Program-made: the position numbers and the translations under genes
Part shown: piece after piece, positions 8,547 to 62,667 of the stretch
Position numbering within the stretch: position 1 is the first letter of the stretch
Layout of the letters: every line of letters starts with the position of its first letter
Notes under the pieces: generated by a model
What the model was told of the DNA's origin: nothing
Databases searched by the model: none
What the model saw: only the letters and a program-made list of their open reading frames with translations
DNA from: Roseovarius indicus
Lineage (GTDB): Bacteria; Pseudomonadota; Alphaproteobacteria; Rhodobacterales; Rhodobacteraceae
Length of the DNA stretch: 64,000 bases
NCBI RefSeq assembly: GCF_008728195.1
Contig: NZ_CP031598.1
Location: forward strand, 2,666,001 to 2,730,000
Direction of reading: 5' to 3'

Positions 8547-9055
8547 CGGAACGCAGCGTCCCGACATCGGTGATGGCGGAACTGGAGCGCGCGGAAAGCC
8601 CCGACGCGCTGATCTGGTTCCTGACAATCACGCACCCGGACATCGGCGAGCCGATCCGCATTGTTTCGGATGTGTTCGATTACGTGCTGGGTGGCGAGAC
8701 CTACACCGCCATGCCGTTCGATGGGCGCCCGCTGACCGACAACGACCAGATGCCGGCGGCGGAGCTGGTGGTTTCCAACGTTGATCGGCGGGTCGGTTTT
8801 GCCCTGGAGCGATCGACGGAGCGAGCCATCATCGACCTTGCCGTTTATTCATCGGCGGACTTCGACTTGAGCGCCGATCCACGTACAGAAATTGGTACAG
8901 CATCGCGGGTCTATGGCTTCGGGCGGTTCGAGTTGAGCGACGTGGAGGTGACGGTGACGCAGATCCGGGGCCGGGTCACGCTGCCAGACTATACGCAGGA
9001 GCCTTGGCCCTACATGCGGGCCACTCAGGACCGGTTTCCGGGGCTGTTCGTGTGA
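8543..9055 (+). CDS. DUF1833-like minor tail protein
   Basis: 170 residues from ATG 8543 (ATGA overlap). 'LIWFLTITHPDIGEPIRIVSD...DYVLGGETYTAMPFDGRPLTDNDQMPAAELVVSNVDR' is the signature of DUF1833, which commonly sits between the distal tail and NlpC/P60 genes in lambda-like alphaproteobacterial phages and takes the position of lambda protein L / GTA gp13. Mostly beta. Function: a tail-tip scaffold subunit, inferred from context. Confidence 0.8.
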   Translation: MTERSVPTSVMAELERAESPDALIWFLTITHPDIGEPIRIVSDVFDYVLGGETYTAMPFDGRPLTDNDQMPAAELVVSNVDRRVGFALERSTERAIIDLAVYSSADFDLSADPRTEIGTASRVYGFGRFELSDVEVTVTQIRGRVTLPDYTQEPWPYMRATQDRFPGLFV

Positions 9056-9456
9056 CCTGGGCCGGGCGTTACATCGGCCTGCCGTTCATCGACGGCGGGC
9101 GCGGACCGGAGGCGGTTGATTGCTGGGGCTTGTGTAAGCTCGTGTACGCGCAGGAATTGGGCATCAACCTCCCCACCTACGGCGAGATCGGGGCCAGCGA
9201 GTTGCGCCGCGTAGCTCAAGCCATCGGCACTGGCCAGTCACAGGCAACGTGGACGCAGGCGGAGGCGCCGCAGGCGTTCGACGTGGCGGTCATGCGAAGC
9301 GGCGGCAAGTGGTTGCCCTGCCATGTCGGCGTGATGGTTGATGCTGGCACGGTCCTGCATGTCGAAAAGGCGTCGAGCGCCTGTCTCGAGCCGATCACAG
9401 GCCAGTTAATGAAACACCGGATCGTCGGGTTCTGGCGGCACAGGGGGCTTGCGTAG
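9052..9456 (+). CDS. NlpC/P60-type tail tip peptidase
   Basis: 134 residues from GTG 9052, which overlaps the previous stop (GTGA). 'GPEAVDCWGLCKLVYAQELG' holds the nucleophilic cysteine of the NlpC/P60 fold, 'KWLPCHVGVMVD' the first histidine, and 'VLHVEKASSACLEP' the later part of the site. The family cleaves peptidoglycan stem peptides, here probably helping the tail tip cross the cell wall, as lambda K and GTA gp14 do. Its stop overlaps the GTG of the tip gene (TAGTG). Confidence 0.85.
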   Translation: MTWAGRYIGLPFIDGGRGPEAVDCWGLCKLVYAQELGINLPTYGEIGASELRRVAQAIGTGQSQATWTQAEAPQAFDVAVMRSGGKWLPCHVGVMVDAGTVLHVEKASSACLEPITGQLMKHRIVGFWRHRGLA

Positions 9457-57024: not shown

Positions 57025-57702
57025 ATGAAACGTATTCTTGCTTCTGCCGCGCTTTGCGCGGCCCTGTCGACTGTTGCCTACGCGGATAACAACGAGATCT
57101 TCGTGACGCAGTCGGGTAACAACAACCAGATCGGCAACGCTGCGCATCCTGCCACGCAGACGGGCATCTACAACGACATGACGTTCACTCAGAGCGGCAG
57201 TGACAACGTCATCGGCGCATCGAGCAACCCTGCACGGTTGCAGGGCGCCATCCAGGACGGCGACGATCATGTCATGGACGTGACCCAGCCGGGCCACCGC
57301 AACCAGGCCATCCGGCTTGAGCAGGATGGCGGCAACCACAGCGACATGTTCATTCGCCAGAGCGGCAATGACAACACGCTGGGCTTCATTCGCCAGAACG
57401 GCGACAAGCACCTCGCCGACATCACGCAGAGCGGCAACAACAACAGCGGCAACGCACGCCAGGTGGGCCGCGACAACGTTCTGATGGCGCGCCAGAGCGG
57501 CAACGCCAACGATTTCCTGATCCTCTCGGGGGATTTCGGCGTGAACGGCCGCCCGGGCGCCTGCACCAGCTGTGACGTGACCCTGATCCAGTCGGGCAAC
57601 TCGAACTACAGCAACGTCTGGCAGCAAGGCAACAACCAGATGGCCAGCATCACCCAGAGCGGCAACAACAACACCGCCTACACCAAGCAGTCGCCGAACT
57701 GA
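57025..57702 (+). CDS. Curlin-repeat amyloid subunit 1 (CsgA/CsgB-like)
   Basis: 225 residues. Signal peptide 1-20 ending VAYA, then 'DNNEIFVTQSGNNNQIGN' and about seven curlin repeats with the Q-x-G-x2-N core (QSGNNN, QSGSDN, QPGHRN, QDGGNH, QSGNDN, QNGDKH, QSGNNN, and so on), which build the cross-beta core of curli fibres. Near the C-terminus the repeats are broken by 'SGDFGVNGRPGACTSCDVTLIQSGN', a CxxC segment absent from E. coli CsgA. It has the longest 5' region of the four and is probably the first cistron. Confidence 0.92.
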   Translation: MKRILASAALCAALSTVAYADNNEIFVTQSGNNNQIGNAAHPATQTGIYNDMTFTQSGSDNVIGASSNPARLQGAIQDGDDHVMDVTQPGHRNQAIRLEQDGGNHSDMFIRQSGNDNTLGFIRQNGDKHLADITQSGNNNSGNARQVGRDNVLMARQSGNANDFLILSGDFGVNGRPGACTSCDVTLIQSGNSNYSNVWQQGNNQMASITQSGNNNTAYTKQSPN

Positions 57703-57728
57703 GACCCGGTTTCCGGCTTTACCGAGGT

Positions 57729-57748
57729 GTCCGGGCCGGCCCCCGGAC
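57729..57748 (+). repeat. Intercistronic hairpin between curlin genes 1 and 2
   Basis: GTCCGGG/CCCGGAC, 7-bp arms around CCGGCC, 27 bases after the stop. Same sequence family as the hairpins at 58470 and 59234. No T-run follows. Confidence 0.75.
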
Positions 57749-57785
57749 CGGATGCCGCCAACCCTTTCAAACTTGAGGAAATGAC

Positions 57786-58445
57786 ATGAAGCTTTTTGCA
57801 ACAGCAGCAGCCCTCGCAGCCCTTGTCGGCACCGCCGCCCTGGCAGACAACAACGAACTTTTCGTGACCCAGTCGGGCAACAACAACGTGATCGGCAATG
57901 CCGACCAGCCGGCCACGCAGATCGGCACGCAGAACGACGCGACCTTCGTTCAGAGCGGCAATGACAACTCGATCGGCGATGTCGGCCCGAACGTGGCCAA
58001 CATGGGGCAGCGCGGCTTCAAGCACACGCTGGAAATCCGTCAGTCGGGTAACCGCAACAAGACGATCCGCTACACCCAGACCGGCGAGAAGAACGACATG
58101 TCGATCCGCCAGACCGGCAATGACAACCAGCTTCAGCTGGTCATGCAGCGGGGCGAGAACAACGACGCCGACGTGGTGCAGAGCGGCAACGACAACCGCG
58201 GCTTCGCCGTGCAGGTCGGCAAATCGAACGTGCTCGACGTGGTCCAGGGCGGCCACCGGAACGATTTCGACATCAACTCGGGTGATTTCGGGCCGTCGAA
58301 CGGGTGCATCTCGTGCGACGTGGTCCTGCGCCAGCCGGGCAACGACAACTACGCCAACGTGCTGCAGTCGGGCACCAACCAGATGGCCAATATCAGCCAG
58401 AGCGGTCTCAACAACACGGTCTACTCGTCGCAGTCGGCAAACTAA
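57786..58445 (+). CDS. Curlin-repeat amyloid subunit 2
   Basis: 219 residues from ATG 57786 (TTGAGGAAATGAC upstream). Signal peptide 1-20 (ending ALA), 'DNNELFVTQSGNNNVIGNADQPATQ', then curlin repeats (QSGNDN, QRGFKH, QSGNRN, QTGEKN, QTGNDN, QRGENN, QSGNDN) and the CxxC segment 'SGDFGPSNGCISCDVVLRQPGN', followed by two final repeats ending 'YSSQSAN'. Exported subunit of the curli-type fibre. Confidence 0.93.
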   Translation: MKLFATAAALAALVGTAALADNNELFVTQSGNNNVIGNADQPATQIGTQNDATFVQSGNDNSIGDVGPNVANMGQRGFKHTLEIRQSGNRNKTIRYTQTGEKNDMSIRQTGNDNQLQLVMQRGENNDADVVQSGNDNRGFAVQVGKSNVLDVVQGGHRNDFDINSGDFGPSNGCISCDVVLRQPGNDNYANVLQSGTNQMANISQSGLNNTVYSSQSAN

Positions 58446-58469
58446 TCCGGCCGCCGGATATCAAGCAGC

Positions 58470-58498
58470 CTGTCCGGGCCGATGCCCGGCCCGGACAG
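58470..58498 (+). repeat. Intercistronic hairpin between curlin genes 2 and 3
   Basis: CTGTCCGGGCC/GGCCCGGACAG, perfect 11-bp arms, loop GATGCCC. Same position relative to the stop and the next RBS as its two relatives. Confidence 0.85.
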
Positions 58499-58527
58499 AT
58501 CCAACACTGGAAAATTGAGGAAACAAC

Positions 58528-59205
58528 ATGAAACTCCTTGCAACTGTAGCCACCGTCGCCGCGCTTCTCGGCACGGCCGGCCTCGCCGACAACAACGAGC
58601 TCTTCGTGACGCAGGCGGGCAACGACAACTTCGTCGGTGATGCCAACAACCCTGTCGAACAGAACGGCACCTCGAACTACATGGACATCAGCCAGACCGG
58701 CAACGGCAACACCGTCGGGTCGCGGGCGACGTCGGAACCGGCGCTGCCGACATGGCCTGGCGCAACCCAGACCGGCTCGGACCACGAGATGACCATCGTG
58801 CAATCGGGGCACCGCAACAAGGCCGAGCTACTTCAGCAGCGCGGCGGCAACAAGAACACGATGGAAATCCGTCAGAGCGGCAATGACAACCGCATCGTCA
58901 ACGCCCACCAGTACGGTGACAAGAACACGTTCGACGTGCGCCAGAGCGGCAACGAGAACTATGGCAACTCGCTGCAGGTCGGTGACCAGAACATCATCGA
59001 GGTGCGCACGAGCGGTCACCGCAACACTTATGACCTGAATCAGGGCAGCTTCTCGGCCAATGCCTGCACCAAGTGCGACATCGAGCTGATCCAGGGCGGC
59101 AACGACAACGCCGCCAATGTGTATCAACAGGATCTGAACCAGATGGCCAGCATCAGCCAGAGCGGCAACGGCAACACGGTCTACACGTCGCAGGCGGCTA
59201 ACTGA
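58528..59205 (+). CDS. Curlin-repeat amyloid subunit 3
   Basis: 225 residues from ATG 58528. Signal peptide ending GLA, 'DNNELFVTQAGNDNFVGDANNPVEQ', repeats with an insertion around residues 65-80 ('RATSEPALPTWPGATQ'), then QSGHRN, QRGGNK, QSGNDN, QYGDKN, QSGNEN, QVGDQN and others, and the CxxC segment 'QGSFSANACTKCDIELIQGGN'. The C-terminal 100 residues are very close to subunit 4, indicating recent duplication. Confidence 0.93.
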   Translation: MKLLATVATVAALLGTAGLADNNELFVTQAGNDNFVGDANNPVEQNGTSNYMDISQTGNGNTVGSRATSEPALPTWPGATQTGSDHEMTIVQSGHRNKAELLQQRGGNKNTMEIRQSGNDNRIVNAHQYGDKNTFDVRQSGNENYGNSLQVGDQNIIEVRTSGHRNTYDLNQGSFSANACTKCDIELIQGGNDNAANVYQQDLNQMASISQSGNGNTVYTSQAAN

Positions 59206-59233
59206 GGCTGCAGAGTCTCAATCAGAAGCGAAA

Positions 59234-59258
59234 ATTCGGGCCGAAGCCCGGCCCGAAT
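59234..59258 (+). repeat. Intercistronic hairpin between curlin genes 3 and 4
   Basis: ATTCGGGCC/GGCCCGAAT, perfect 9-bp arms, loop GAAGCCC, almost the same loop as at 58481-58487. Confidence 0.85.
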
Positions 59259-59291
59259 GACACCCACATTTGTAAATGGTAGGAAATTAAC

Positions 59292-59930
59292 ATGAAGCTT
59301 TTCGCAACAGTGACCGCGCTTGCCGCACTCCTGGGAACGGCCAGCCTTGCCGACAACAACGAGATTTTCGTGGCCCAGTCAGGCAACAACAACAACATCG
59401 GTACGGCGGCCGACCCGCTGGAACAGGTCGGCACGCAGAACTTGATCGACGTCACTCAGAGCGGCAACGAGAACACGGTCGCGAAGGCCCGTCAGGCAGG
59501 CGCCCAACACGACATGAACGTCGTGCAGTCGGGTAACCGCAACCTGTTCCAGAACGTCCGCCAGCGGGGCGGCGACAACAACGAGATGGTCATCCGTCAG
59601 AGCGGCAACGACAACCGCATCGTCAACGCCAACCAGTTCGGTAACAGCAACTTGCTTGATGTGCGCCAGGGCGGCAACGACAACTATGGCCACTCGCTTC
59701 AGAAGGGCGACCAGAACACCATGGTCGTGCGCACCAACGGTCACCGCAACGAATACAGGATGGCCCAGGGCAGCTTCAACGCGAATGACTGCACGGGGTG
59801 CGACATCGAGCTGACCCAGGGCGGCAACGACAACCTGGCCAACGTGTATCAGATGGATCTGAACCAGATGGCCAGCATCAACCAGAGCGGCAACGGCAAC
59901 ACGGTTTACACCAGCCAGAGCGCAAACTGA
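59292..59930 (+). CDS. Curlin-repeat amyloid subunit 4
   Basis: 212 residues from ATG 59292 (GGTAGGAAATTAAC upstream). Signal peptide ending SLA, 'DNNEIFVAQSGNNNNIGTAADPLEQ', then curlin repeats (QSGNEN, QAGAQH, QSGNRN, QRGGDN, QSGNDN, QFGNSN, QGGNDN, QKGDQN), the CxxC segment 'QGSFNANDCTGCDIELTQGGN', and two final repeats ending 'YTSQSAN'. Followed directly by the terminator. Confidence 0.93.
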   Translation: MKLFATVTALAALLGTASLADNNEIFVAQSGNNNNIGTAADPLEQVGTQNLIDVTQSGNENTVAKARQAGAQHDMNVVQSGNRNLFQNVRQRGGDNNEMVIRQSGNDNRIVNANQFGNSNLLDVRQGGNDNYGHSLQKGDQNTMVVRTNGHRNEYRMAQGSFNANDCTGCDIELTQGGNDNLANVYQMDLNQMASINQSGNGNTVYTSQSAN

Positions 59931-59936
59931 GACCGG

Positions 59937-59978
59937 GGCGCGCGCGATCTTTCGCAGGGTCACGCGCGCCTTGTTTAT
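59937..59978 (+). terminator. Terminator behind the curlin subunit genes
   Basis: GGCGCGCG (59937-59944) pairs with CGCGCGCC (59963-59970) around an 18-base loop and is followed by TTGTTTATT. It separates the subunit genes from the accessory genes, allowing different expression levels. Confidence 0.7.
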
Positions 59979-60040: not shown

Positions 60041-60418
60041 GTGATACATCTCATCCGCCTTCTTTTCCTGACCGGGCTTTTGAGTGTCGCTTCGATAGGG
60101 AGTGCCCAGGGTTTGACACAGCTTGCCTGCCGGGTCGTTGTCGAGAAGAACGATGATCTCGTGTCGGTCTACGCGCTGGCGCAGGTCAGCCAGCCGGTCA
60201 CCGTGGATTATTCCCTCGAGACAACCAAGATCAGCGCTTCGGGGACCGGGACCACCGTGCAATCCGGCACGCAGGACATGCAGGTGGGCAAGACGCAGGT
60301 CCTGTCGCAGGTCACCTACCGGCTGGAACCCGATGGCTGGCTGGAATTCGGCCTCGAGGTCACCGACCGGCTGACCGGGGCCAGATGCGAGTCGAGCGAG
60401 GCGGTCAGCCCAATCTGA
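60041..60418 (+). CDS. csgH: CsgH-like curli assembly protein / amyloid inhibitor
   Basis: 125 residues from GTG 60041. Signal peptide 1-23 (ending SAQ), mature part beta-rich: 'CRVVVEKNDDLVSVYALAQVSQPVTVDYSLETTKISASGTGTTVQSGTQDM..GKTQVLSQVTYRL'. That is the immunoglobulin-like CsgC/CsgH fold, in which the S-G-x-S..Q-S-G block is characteristic of the alphaproteobacterial CsgH. It holds curli subunits unfolded in the periplasm. Two cysteines (about residues 30 and 116) may form a disulfide. Confidence 0.85.
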   Translation: MIHLIRLLFLTGLLSVASIGSAQGLTQLACRVVVEKNDDLVSVYALAQVSQPVTVDYSLETTKISASGTGTTVQSGTQDMQVGKTQVLSQVTYRLEPDGWLEFGLEVTDRLTGARCESSEAVSPI

Positions 60419-60430
60419 AGGAGTGTCGAC

Positions 60431-61015
60431 GTGAACTTTACGGATTTCGTTACAGGGCTCAGGGGAGCTGCCGCCGCGGCGATGCTCGCCGCCATCACGC
60501 TTGCCGCGCCAGACCCGGCCGCGGCCCAGAACGCGGAGGTCACGGTCGAACAGGTCCGGCCCGGCACGGCGGGCGATACGGCCGGCTACTACCAGGACAC
60601 CACCGGCGCCGGGGACGACACCGGCGATTATGTGCCCACGCAGCTTATCACCGGCGGCGCGCGGCTGACCGTGGGCTCGACCAACCTGTCGAGCATCAAC
60701 CAGGCCGGCAACAGCAATTTCGCGAGCGTCAACATCAGCGGCATCGGCAACCTGACGCTCCAGGACCAGCGCGGCGCGTTCAACAGCTCGGAGCTGGACG
60801 TGATCGGCTCGCGCAACCGCGTGCTGGTGGAGCAGCGGGGGGTCGGCCTGCAGTCGGACATCAATCTCACCGGTGCGGAAGGCAAGACCGTTGTGCATTT
60901 GCAACGGGGGCGCGCAAGTTCGCGCAGTGTCGACCCGATCGACATAGGGAATCAGGGCGCAGCCGTTGTGTTTGTTTTAGATACACCAAGAGGTCGTCGA
61001 ATAGTCACCAAATAG
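60431..61015 (+). CDS. Divergent curlin-repeat protein (possible nucleator, CsgB-like)
   Basis: 194 residues from GTG 60431 with AAGGAGTG upstream. A long signal peptide (about 1-34, ending AAAQ), a ~50-residue spacer rich in Thr/Gly/Asp, and then only a few curlin-type strands: 'SSINQAGNSNFASVNISGIGNLTLQDQRGAFNSSELDVIGSRNRVLVEQRG'. The end is basic ('VLDTPRGRRIVTK'), as in the membrane-anchoring last repeat of CsgB. It could be the nucleator or a minor subunit; the basic tail favours the first. Confidence 0.7.
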   Translation: MNFTDFVTGLRGAAAAAMLAAITLAAPDPAAAQNAEVTVEQVRPGTAGDTAGYYQDTTGAGDDTGDYVPTQLITGGARLTVGSTNLSSINQAGNSNFASVNISGIGNLTLQDQRGAFNSSELDVIGSRNRVLVEQRGVGLQSDINLTGAEGKTVVHLQRGRASSRSVDPIDIGNQGAAVVFVLDTPRGRRIVTK

Positions 61016-61096
61016 CCATTTCACCCCATTATCAGCCTTGCGGTGACTTGCAATTTGAGACACGCCGTGCGACTTCGCGACATGGGGAGACATGGA

Positions 61097-61510
61097 ATGA
61101 GATACTTTGTGACTTTGTTGGCCTGCGCCATCTGCGGGCACGCAGCGGCGGGCGACCTCGTGTACCAGCCGATCAACCCGTCCTTCGGGGGCAACCCGCT
61201 GAACAGCTCGCACCTGTACCAGGGCGCGGACATTCAGAACCAGTACATCGACGACGGCAGCCGGTTCGATGACCTCTTCGAGGAACCGTCCCTGGCGGAA
61301 GAATTCGCAGAAGCGATCCGCAACGGCATGATCTCGATCGCGGCCGGGGAGCTGATCGATTCCATCGTGCTTCAGGAGAACCCGACCGGCACCATGGAGC
61401 TTGACGGCGCGATGGTGAGCTGGGTCACGCAGGGCGACCGGGTGGTGATCACCGTCAATGACGGCGTGTCGACCCAGACGCTCGATATCCCCGTTCCGGT
61501 GATCAACTGA
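61097..61510 (+). CDS. csgF: Curli assembly protein CsgF
   Basis: 137 residues from ATG 61097. Signal peptide (FVTLLACAICGHAAAG), then 'DLVYQPINPSFGGNPLNSSHLYQGADIQNQY', the defining N-terminal segment of CsgF, which inserts in the CsgG channel as a second constriction; the rest ('FAEAIRNGMISIAAGELIDSIVLQENP...GRVVITVNDG'-type region) is the extracellular neck and head. It couples secretion to nucleation at the cell surface. Confidence 0.92.
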   Translation: MRYFVTLLACAICGHAAAGDLVYQPINPSFGGNPLNSSHLYQGADIQNQYIDDGSRFDDLFEEPSLAEEFAEAIRNGMISIAAGELIDSIVLQENPTGTMELDGAMVSWVTQGDRVVITVNDGVSTQTLDIPVPVIN

Positions 61511-61536: not shown

Positions 61537-62667
61537 TTGAATACAGGTATGTTTCGAAAACAGGCGCGACTGGCCCTGGCGGTGATGCTTGCGGGCACGC
61601 TGATGGGATGTGCGGGCAAGGACCCGTTCGAACCGGGCCGCAATGACGTGCCCGCGCGGATCCTGCCGGAGACGCAGACGAGCGCGGCACTGAAGGGCCT
61701 GCCGGCGCCGAAGCGCAAGATGACGCTGGCGGTCTACGAATTTCCCGACCTGACGGGTCAGCACAAGCCGAGCGAGAATTTCGCGGAATTCTCGCGGGCG
61801 GTGACGCAGGGCGCGGACGCGATCCTTGTGGATGTGCTCACCAAAGCCGGTCGTGGCGAGTGGTTCGACGTGGTCGAGCGGCGGGGCCTGACCAATATCC
61901 TGCGCGAGCGGCAGATCATTCAGGCCACCCGGCAGGAACACGAGGGCGAGGAGGCCAAGCCGCTGAACCCGCTGACCTTTGCCGGGGTTCTGATCGAGGG
62001 CGGTGTCGTCGCCTATGAATCGAACCTGCGGACCGGCGGGCTGGGCGCGCGCTATCTCGGGATCGGCGGGCACACCGAGTATCGCGAGGATTACGTGACC
62101 GTGAACCTGCGGCTTGTGAGTGTCAGCAGCGGCCGTGTGCTGCACAGTGTCACGACGACCAAGCAGGTCTATTCGACGCTGGTGCAGGCCAATGTCTTCC
62201 GCTTCGTGTCGAGCGATGCGCTGCTGGAGATCGACGCGGGCTATACCCGGAATTCGCCGCCGCAATTCGCGTTGCGCGAGGCCATCGAGCTTGGCGTCTT
62301 CGCCATGGTGCTGGAAGGCCGCGAGCAAGGGCTGTGGGATTTCAAGAACCCGGCCCGGGGCGTGCAGGCGATGCAGACCTACATTCAACGCAACCCGAAC
62401 CTGGCCGATGGCGACACGCCCGTGGTGGTGTCGCGGGACGACCGGGCGTCGGCCTTCGACCCGATCCCGTTGGCGCAGGTCGACGAGCGCTGGCTGGATC
62501 AGCCCGACATGGGCGAAAGCCGCGCCTCGCTTGCCGCGGTGCGGCCGGTGGCGCGGGGCAACCGGATGGCCGATACCGATGTGCCGGACGCAGAGGCCGA
62601 TACCGATACGCCGGACGAGATCGTCGAGATTACCGAAGCCGGGGTCGACCTGGCCGAGCTGCGCTGA
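61537..62667 (+). CDS. csgG: Curli secretion channel CsgG
   Basis: 376 residues from TTG 61537 (ATG 61549 possible). Lipobox LMGC with lipidated Cys at about residue 25. 'KMTLAVYEFPDLTGQHKPS' opens the periplasmic domain, 'ADAILVDVLTKAGRGEWFDVVERRGLTNILRERQIIQATRQ' and 'LTFAGVLIEGGVVAYESNLRTGGLGARYLGIGGHTEYREDYVTVNLRLVSVSSGRVLHSVTTTKQVYST' form the nine-fold 36-strand barrel region. An acidic C-terminal extension (about residues 335-376) goes beyond E. coli CsgG. No csgE follows. Confidence 0.95.
   Translation: MNTGMFRKQARLALAVMLAGTLMGCAGKDPFEPGRNDVPARILPETQTSAALKGLPAPKRKMTLAVYEFPDLTGQHKPSENFAEFSRAVTQGADAILVDVLTKAGRGEWFDVVERRGLTNILRERQIIQATRQEHEGEEAKPLNPLTFAGVLIEGGVVAYESNLRTGGLGARYLGIGGHTEYREDYVTVNLRLVSVSSGRVLHSVTTTKQVYSTLVQANVFRFVSSDALLEIDAGYTRNSPPQFALREAIELGVFAMVLEGREQGLWDFKNPARGVQAMQTYIQRNPNLADGDTPVVVSRDDRASAFDPIPLAQVDERWLDQPDMGESRASLAAVRPVARGNRMADTDVPDAEADTDTPDEIVEITEAGVDLAELR

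Follow-up and report, generated by a model that had tools for sequence, protein, structure and literature searches.

Curli are the textbook functional amyloid. The curli locus considered here lies in the genome of Roseovarius indicus, a member of a marine-rich group of bacteria, within a stretch of 64,000 nucleotides (contig NZ_CP031598.1, positions 2,666,001 to 2,730,000; below, the window), and it encodes four adjacent curlins that each carry one C-x-x-C motif (CxxC). The curlins CsgA and CsgB of Escherichia coli share with those of the window the curlin repeats, a predicted beta-solenoid fold and the company of csgF, csgG and a chaperone gene (PMC10192328). E. coli CsgA is described as having no cysteine (PMC7264389), in agreement with the initial annotation of the window, which had noted that it lacks such a pair, whereas the window curlins hold a CxxC in an expanded arc. 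The window locus has csgH in place of the E. coli csgC, and no match to CsgE was obtained in the genome.

The degenerate curlins (class D) of Sleutel et al. 2023 include a protein of R. indicus, A0A0T5PAS6, and resemble the window curlins in their arc and strand insertions and eight repeats (PMC10192328). This protein, compared by its description only, may belong to the same clade as the window curlins; the accessible part of that account mentions cysteines only as engineered mutants. The nearest published precedent for the motif is FapC of Pseudomonas, a secreted functional amyloid with a CxxC for which disulfides have been suggested (PMC3684753, PMC6173800). FapC differs in its repeat family and its exporter, and its CxxC is reported as C-terminal, outside the fibre core and absent from the sequences of P. 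entomophila and P. putida. The Pfam and NCBIfam matches of the window curlins are to curlin families and their neighbours are csg genes, no Fap model having been searched by itself. A cysteine pair has also been placed in a curlin by design: CsgA-CC is likewise paired, but the pair is man-made and distant, and the oxidised protein is soluble in vitro (PMC7264389). No description of native cysteine pairs in curlins was found in searches of a library of open-licence papers, supplements not covered. Here, we report that the CxxC is invariant in a rare clade of curlins and propose, at a rough probability of 0.55, that it forms a local disulfide clip on an arc of the subunit.

Four curlins with a CxxC in an expanded arc

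Four consecutive curlin genes had been annotated at 57025-59930, and all four products match Curlin_rpt (PF07012) above cut-off (E 7.1e-13 to 5e-18). The genes and the segments around the motif are as follows (lengths in amino acids, aa).

57025..57702, + strand: curlin 1, 225 aa, CxxC = CTSC at residues 180-183 (PF07012 E 1.7e-15)
57786..58445, + strand: curlin 2, 219 aa, CxxC = CISC at residues 174-177 (PF07012 E 5e-18)
58528..59205, + strand: curlin 3, 225 aa, CxxC = CTKC at residues 180-183 (PF07012 E 1.1e-13)
59292..59930, + strand: curlin 4, 212 aa, CxxC = CTGC at residues 167-170 (PF07012 E 7.1e-13)
57508..57591, + strand: curlin 1, strand, expanded arc, CxxC and next strand (from the sequence and repeat parse; CxxC codons 57562-57573)
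58260..58334, + strand: curlin 2, the same elements (repeat parse; CxxC codons 58305-58316)
59023..59094, + strand: curlin 3, the same elements (repeat parse; CxxC codons 59065-59076)
59748..59819, + strand: curlin 4, the same elements (repeat parse; CxxC codons 59790-59801)

The other three curlins are 55, 50 and 49% identical to curlin 1. A hydrophobic N-terminal leader is seen by eye on the window curlins, which are presumably exported and form an amyloid fibre, and from their repeats and operon position we infer that they are major subunits. Each mature protein has exactly two cysteines, both in the single CxxC (4/4), with one additional cysteine within the leader of curlin 1. The consensus given earlier for the segment, [SG]-x-F...C-x-x-C-D-[IV]-x-L-x-Q-x-G-N, fits all four.

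Parsed by eye into half repeats of 11 residues with the motif N-x-psi-x-psi-x-Q-x-G-x-x (PMC10192328), every window curlin has eight repeats, and the CxxC sits in the arc between repeats 6 and 7. The half repeat that precedes it runs from a strand through an enlarged arc to the motif, so that 17-21 residues separate the Asn from the second cysteine, against 11 normally. What had been called an insertion does bring extra residues near the CxxC, but it is rather an arc expanded by 6-10 residues in which the second cysteine takes the slot of the kernel Asn that opens the next strand. Elsewhere in the proteins (57085-57345 in curlin 1, and counterparts), repeats 1 and 2 apparently have their second strand broken by loops of variable length, as judged by eye; these loops differ among the paralogues while the CxxC is constant.

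AlphaFold2 predicted a curlin beta-solenoid for curlin 3 (predicted local distance difference test, pLDDT, 90.2; predicted template modelling score, pTM, 0.87) and for curlin 1 (pLDDT 88.2, pTM 0.86). A strand begins at the second cysteine (residue 163) in the model of curlin 3 (163-169) and at the first cysteine in that of curlin 1 (160-170). Foldseek returned nothing from the PDB at E <= 0.001, and neither curlin entry was among the best 50 matches listed in each of the two structure searches.

Conservation and distribution of the CxxC curlins

Relatives were gathered by three protein searches and by one genome scan, which used a single N-terminal peptide pattern and hence had a limited reach; the scan gave nine loci, with a CxxC only in that of Epibacterium sp. 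Ofav1-8 (L040). In the first protein search the CxxC group scored at least 189 bits and the next full-length protein 83 bits. In the second, the lowest complete member scored 199 bits and the next protein 154 bits (P0116, a 498-aa protein from Calditrichia without CxxC), and in the third, run with a profile from the CxxC group, these values were 276 and 165 bits. By score, the CxxC curlins are thus set apart from the remaining homologues as one group.

Twenty-two full-length rows represent this clade: 16 database proteins (of which P0001 and P0002 are marked as those of the window itself), the window's four curlins (W1 to W4) and two from Epibacterium. Several pairs are near-identical (P0001/W3, P0002/W4, P0003/W1, Epi1/P0008, Epi2/P0010, P0011/P0012 and P0114/P0115), so that about 15 rows are distinct. 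Two fragments, P0014 (136 aa) and P0016 (118 aa), were excluded from the count; they match the N-terminal part of curlin 2 and end or turn unrelated before the CxxC segment.

All 22 rows have exactly two mature cysteines, arranged as CxxC. From the second cysteine to the next Gln there are six residues in 22/22 rows, the same as from a normal Asn to its Gln, and the C-terminus follows after 41-46 residues, or about two repeats. The arc that precedes the motif is variable, the second cysteine following the last Asn at a distance of 17-33 residues, against 11 normally. The residue after the second cysteine is Asp in 18 rows, Glu in two, Val in one and Tyr in one, and never His. Pairwise identity has a median of 49% and a minimum of 34%, and among 181 gap-free columns 37 are invariant, 35 of them belonging to the N/Q/G kernel and the other two being the cysteines. 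Retention of the pair in every row at such identity is more than chance would give and, on these alignments, points to selection. The initial annotation had argued for a function from the conservation in four copies, an argument that the wider clade strengthens, and the random loss of cysteines among homologues, which it had named as contrary evidence, was not seen.

The clade is rare. Besides the own genome, no match was obtained among 393 genomes of the family or 384 of the class at E <= 1e-20, or among 389 of the order at E <= 1e-15; the three samples share members, no genome had more than seven first-look candidates scored among the matches listed, and the family sample missed Epibacterium, a known carrier. 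At E <= 0.001, seven of 60 relatives match, the own genome included, and the non-own matches are weak. Eight annotated plasmid records with weak curlin matches (33.5-37.2% identity) comprise seven of Rhizobium and one of Aureimonas. In the tree, curlin 2 is placed beside three foreign proteins (support 97/99), and curlins 3 and 4 form a pair (87/80) inside a set that includes an Epibacterium copy (92/83), while the placement of curlin 1 has no resolution. From these groupings, at least part of the curlin duplication would be older than the split of these lineages.

The Epibacterium locus encodes two CxxC curlins followed by the same gene order as in the window. Upstream of it, at 230-4266 of L040, are two long open reading frames (ORFs) on the - strand that give the impression of being related to a secretion system. 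A match to the CsgG family occurs in 11 of 60 genomes of the genus, the own included, some of them weak. Five congener csg loci (L061-L065) were compared, and they carry another curlin type. CsgG of the window shares 71% identity with that of Epibacterium and 38-47% with those of the five congeners. On this comparison, the window locus represents a csg lineage of its own, owing either to transfer or to differential loss. That four paralogues lie side by side was described correctly at the outset, but several adjacent curlins are not unusual, since four of the five congener loci have two to three adjacent curlins of 329-512 aa and up to 30 CsgA-like copies have been reported within one genome (PMC10192328).

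Cysteines in other curlins

Among 251 homologues listed from outside the clade, many of them related and thus not independent, 187 have no mature cysteine, 50 an even number and 14 an odd number. A further arrangement was found in a second curli locus of the same genome (L009).

C1:4036000-4052000: second curli locus, with a curlin at 8807-9448

The curlin of this locus contains QSGRCN and QSGNCN, with the cysteines exactly 22 residues apart. Since 22 residues make one rung, they would stack in adjacent rungs. The locus also holds CsgH (PF21112, NF041112) and a 120-aa curlin, and no csgG or csgF was seen near it. A search with its curlin gave matches in 33 of 198 family genomes, the own included. 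In the 30 loci kept, the aligned positions hold both cysteines in 10 (query included), one alone in none and neither in 20. As far as this alignment goes, the 22-spaced pair is gained or lost as a pair, though it is often absent. The 35 curlin-like ORFs of these loci comprise 14 with a 22-spaced pair, one with a 24-spaced pair, one with a single cysteine and 19 with none. The distances of the 14 pairs to the C-terminus are exactly 52 and 30 residues in 10 cases, 118 and 96 in three and 64 and 42 in one. Short curlins of this sort occur in L066-L086, which include other genera, and in the congener locus L011, where the cysteines lie 52 and 30 residues from the end and the gene lies outside that genome's examined csg locus. 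They are like the window curlins in having paired cysteines at a mostly fixed C-terminal distance, and one is found in the same genome; they differ in that the cysteines are 22 apart across adjacent rungs and form no CxxC. Two random cysteines would fall 22 apart with a chance of about 1-1.6%. The frequency of the pair is biased because the loci were found with a cysteine-bearing query, and what is informative is that the spacing recurs exactly at several places and that the positions hold both cysteines or none.

Further patterns exist among curlin homologues. P0034, P0148, P0190 and their relatives have two or three local pairs (e.g. C-x11-C, CxxC, CxxxC), each of which apparently flanks an arc. 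P0231 (412 aa) has 16 cysteines after residue 25, several of which form CxC or CxxC motifs, and P0126, P0168, P0198 and P0259 have a Cys-x7-Cys near the N-terminus, within a PPGxPC...GNPC stretch. That cysteines of curlins lie near the subunit ends is not claimed as a general rule, as several groups break it, and clusters of cysteine-bearing curlins at 40% identity were set aside because the repeats caused different pair types to be merged.

Organization of the csg locus

Downstream of curlin 4, the locus continues on the same strand with csgH, a csgB-like curlin gene, csgF and csgG. Stem-loops are present in the spacers.

60041..60418, + strand: csgH, curli assembly chaperone (NF041112 E 1.7e-13, 50.4 bits vs cut-off 35)
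60431..61015, + strand: csgB-like curlin without cysteine, from its sequence (PF07012 E 3.9e-6, 27.1 bits vs cut-off 20.7)
61043..61510, + strand: csgF (PF10614 E 1.3e-20)
61537..62667, + strand: csgG, outer-membrane curlin exporter (PF03783 E 3.3e-58)
57729..57748, + strand: 7-bp stem-loop, spacer of curlins 1 and 2 (spacer fold z -1.33, weak)
58470..58498, + strand: 12-bp perfect stem-loop, spacer of curlins 2 and 3 (z -4.48)
59234..59258, + strand: 10-bp perfect stem-loop, spacer of curlins 3 and 4 (z -2.17)
59937..59970, + strand: 11-bp stem-loop 3' of curlin 4 (spacer z -3.79)

The presence of CsgG and CsgF marks a type VIII (csg) locus, and csgH adjoining the subunit genes, above the NF041112 cut-off, marks it as of alphaproteobacterial type; the Pfam CsgH model gave no match to the csgH product at E 0.1. 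The window csgG is the single PF03783 match of the genome. No match to CsgE (PF10627) was found across the genome, the E. coli control being positive, and CsgE is reported as absent in Alphaproteobacteria (PMC3521004). The intergenic spacers measure 12-110 bases, so the csg genes likely form one operon. The stem-loops are GC-rich and occur in each spacer 3' of a window curlin gene (z -1.33 to -4.48), the two Epibacterium spacers have fold z values of -2.90 and -2.04, and such elements possibly control subunit ratios. A sigma-70 promoter scan found none, and Rfam at gathering scores returned three tRNAs only, near 23 kb.

Discussion

The locus is a variant of curli subunits and not a new system. 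The four curlins would be subunits of a curli fibre, exported via the adjoining CsgG, each folding as a predicted beta-solenoid of eight rungs in which the arc between rungs 6 and 7 is enlarged to a loop. The CxxC would stand at the downstream foot of this loop, with the second cysteine in the slot of the kernel Asn that usually locks the arc, and an intramolecular disulfide would form after export from the cytoplasm, via oxidation of the DsbA/DsbB type or outside the cell. Such a clip would substitute for the lost hydrogen bonds of the Asn, fasten the loop where rung 7 begins and stabilise the last two rungs, beside the joint between subunits. Given the three-residue spacing of the cysteines, the chain would remain extended when oxidised and should still pass CsgG. 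We infer the disulfide state, its timing, the passage and the effect on stability. A clip is favoured because both cysteines are kept and the register of the second is fixed while the preceding loop varies, and it gains support from the even-number bias in other curlins and from the both-or-none behaviour of the 22-spaced pair. The genome encodes DsbB (PF02600) and Thioredoxin_4 (PF13462, DsbA-like) families, so the host periplasm is probably oxidising. Both the CxxC and the 22-spaced arrangement would be compatible with local disulfides holding together an arc or a pair of rungs. Native covalent clips may have arisen repeatedly in Rhodobacterales-type curlins, often near the subunit end, as a CxxC arc clip two rungs from the C-terminus or as a one-rung cysteine ladder in short curlins; this is a tentative extension of the proposal and is more doubtful than the clip itself.

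Several observations weigh against the clip. The block with the arc and first cysteine is modelled with less certainty (mean pLDDT 76 in curlin 3 and 56 in curlin 1). Absence of the segment from closely related loci had been named beforehand as evidence against a conserved role, and 17 of 18 curlin-like ORFs in the five congener loci have no cysteine beyond residue 25, as reckoned from a rough start; the remaining one (L061, 244 aa) has adjacent cysteines at 45-46, perhaps upstream of the true start. This counts weakly, as these loci carry the other curlin type and a CsgG of low identity to that of the window. Clips also seem dispensable in related curlins, since 20 of the 30 loci lack the 22-spaced pair at the aligned positions. 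The authors of the FapC work judge its CxxC unable to pair within the strand and propose roles in polymerisation or between fibres (PMC6173800). In E. coli CsgA, the single mutant A63C gave white colonies, as did the double mutant (PMC7264389). The in vivo result with CsgA-CC therefore does not isolate the disulfide, and one cannot conclude from that study that harm to curli is confined to distant disulfides. For the proposal, the A63C control weighs in one direction and the both-or-none pattern in the other.

The alternatives that the initial annotation had raised (metal binding, disulfide cross-linking of fibres, redox control) are best weighed against the same data. Of its disulfide proposal the bond is retained, as a local clip rather than a link between fibres. 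Intermolecular disulfides joining neighbouring subunits or fibres are unlikely but deserve attention: the arcs would be the narrow edges of the fibre, intermolecular bonds (PMC3684753) and inter-fibre stabilisation (PMC6173800) have been suggested for the CxxC of FapC, which is why this explanation is kept, and an amyloid-like sheath protein of M. hungatei has been proposed to be joined by disulfides (PMC10593813). A local bond, however, agrees better with two cysteines three residues apart on a single arc and always present together, as with the mostly even cysteine counts of other curlins and the joint retention or loss of the 22-spaced pair. A redox switch, by which reduced subunits assemble or are exported while the oxidised form is retained, or vice versa, would tie biofilm to oxygen or sulfide. 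It is quite improbable, since the pair in CsgA-CC, a working redox switch in vitro (PMC7264389), spans the protein, whereas a three-residue bridge could not hold distant rungs apart. A redox-active CxC is known in E. coli CsgC (PMC3173608), but none of the eight proteins encoded by the csg locus was recognised as belonging to an oxidoreductase family, and the only other cysteine pair of the locus, by eye, is that of CsgH, with the spacing usual for its family (PMC4838910).

Binding of zinc, iron or copper by the CxxC, alone or with the pair of a second fibre, is very unlikely. The motif is a common metal half-site, and lateral contact of fibres could join two pairs. Against this, the clade has no further invariant ligand, the cysteines being the sole invariant residues outside N/Q/G; an Asp follows the motif in 18 of 22 rows, and with one motif per subunit the sites would be far apart within a fibre. 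Profile matches in the PDB to the zinc fingers of CTCF (E 0.84 and 0.92) are at chance level, and a zinc finger was rejected. Attachment of c-type heme was likewise rejected, as no His follows the motif (CxxCH in 0/22 rows). That the CxxC has no role and was simply passed down within a young gene family is hardly credible. In favour of this are the rarity of the clade, the near-identity of several rows and the lack of such pairs in related curlins; against it, both cysteines are invariant at the median identity of 49% and the minimum of 34%, while the length of the adjoining loop varies.

If the clip is real, sturdier or switchable curli materials may follow, and the locus would be a natural setting in which redox effects on a functional amyloid can be tested. 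The CxxC clade, beside the curlins with cysteines one rung apart, would show bacteria using native disulfides to tune an amyloid. Had such clips indeed arisen repeatedly, fibre stability or growth in Rhodobacterales-type bacteria would be subject to oxidation, which has no part in the E. coli model.

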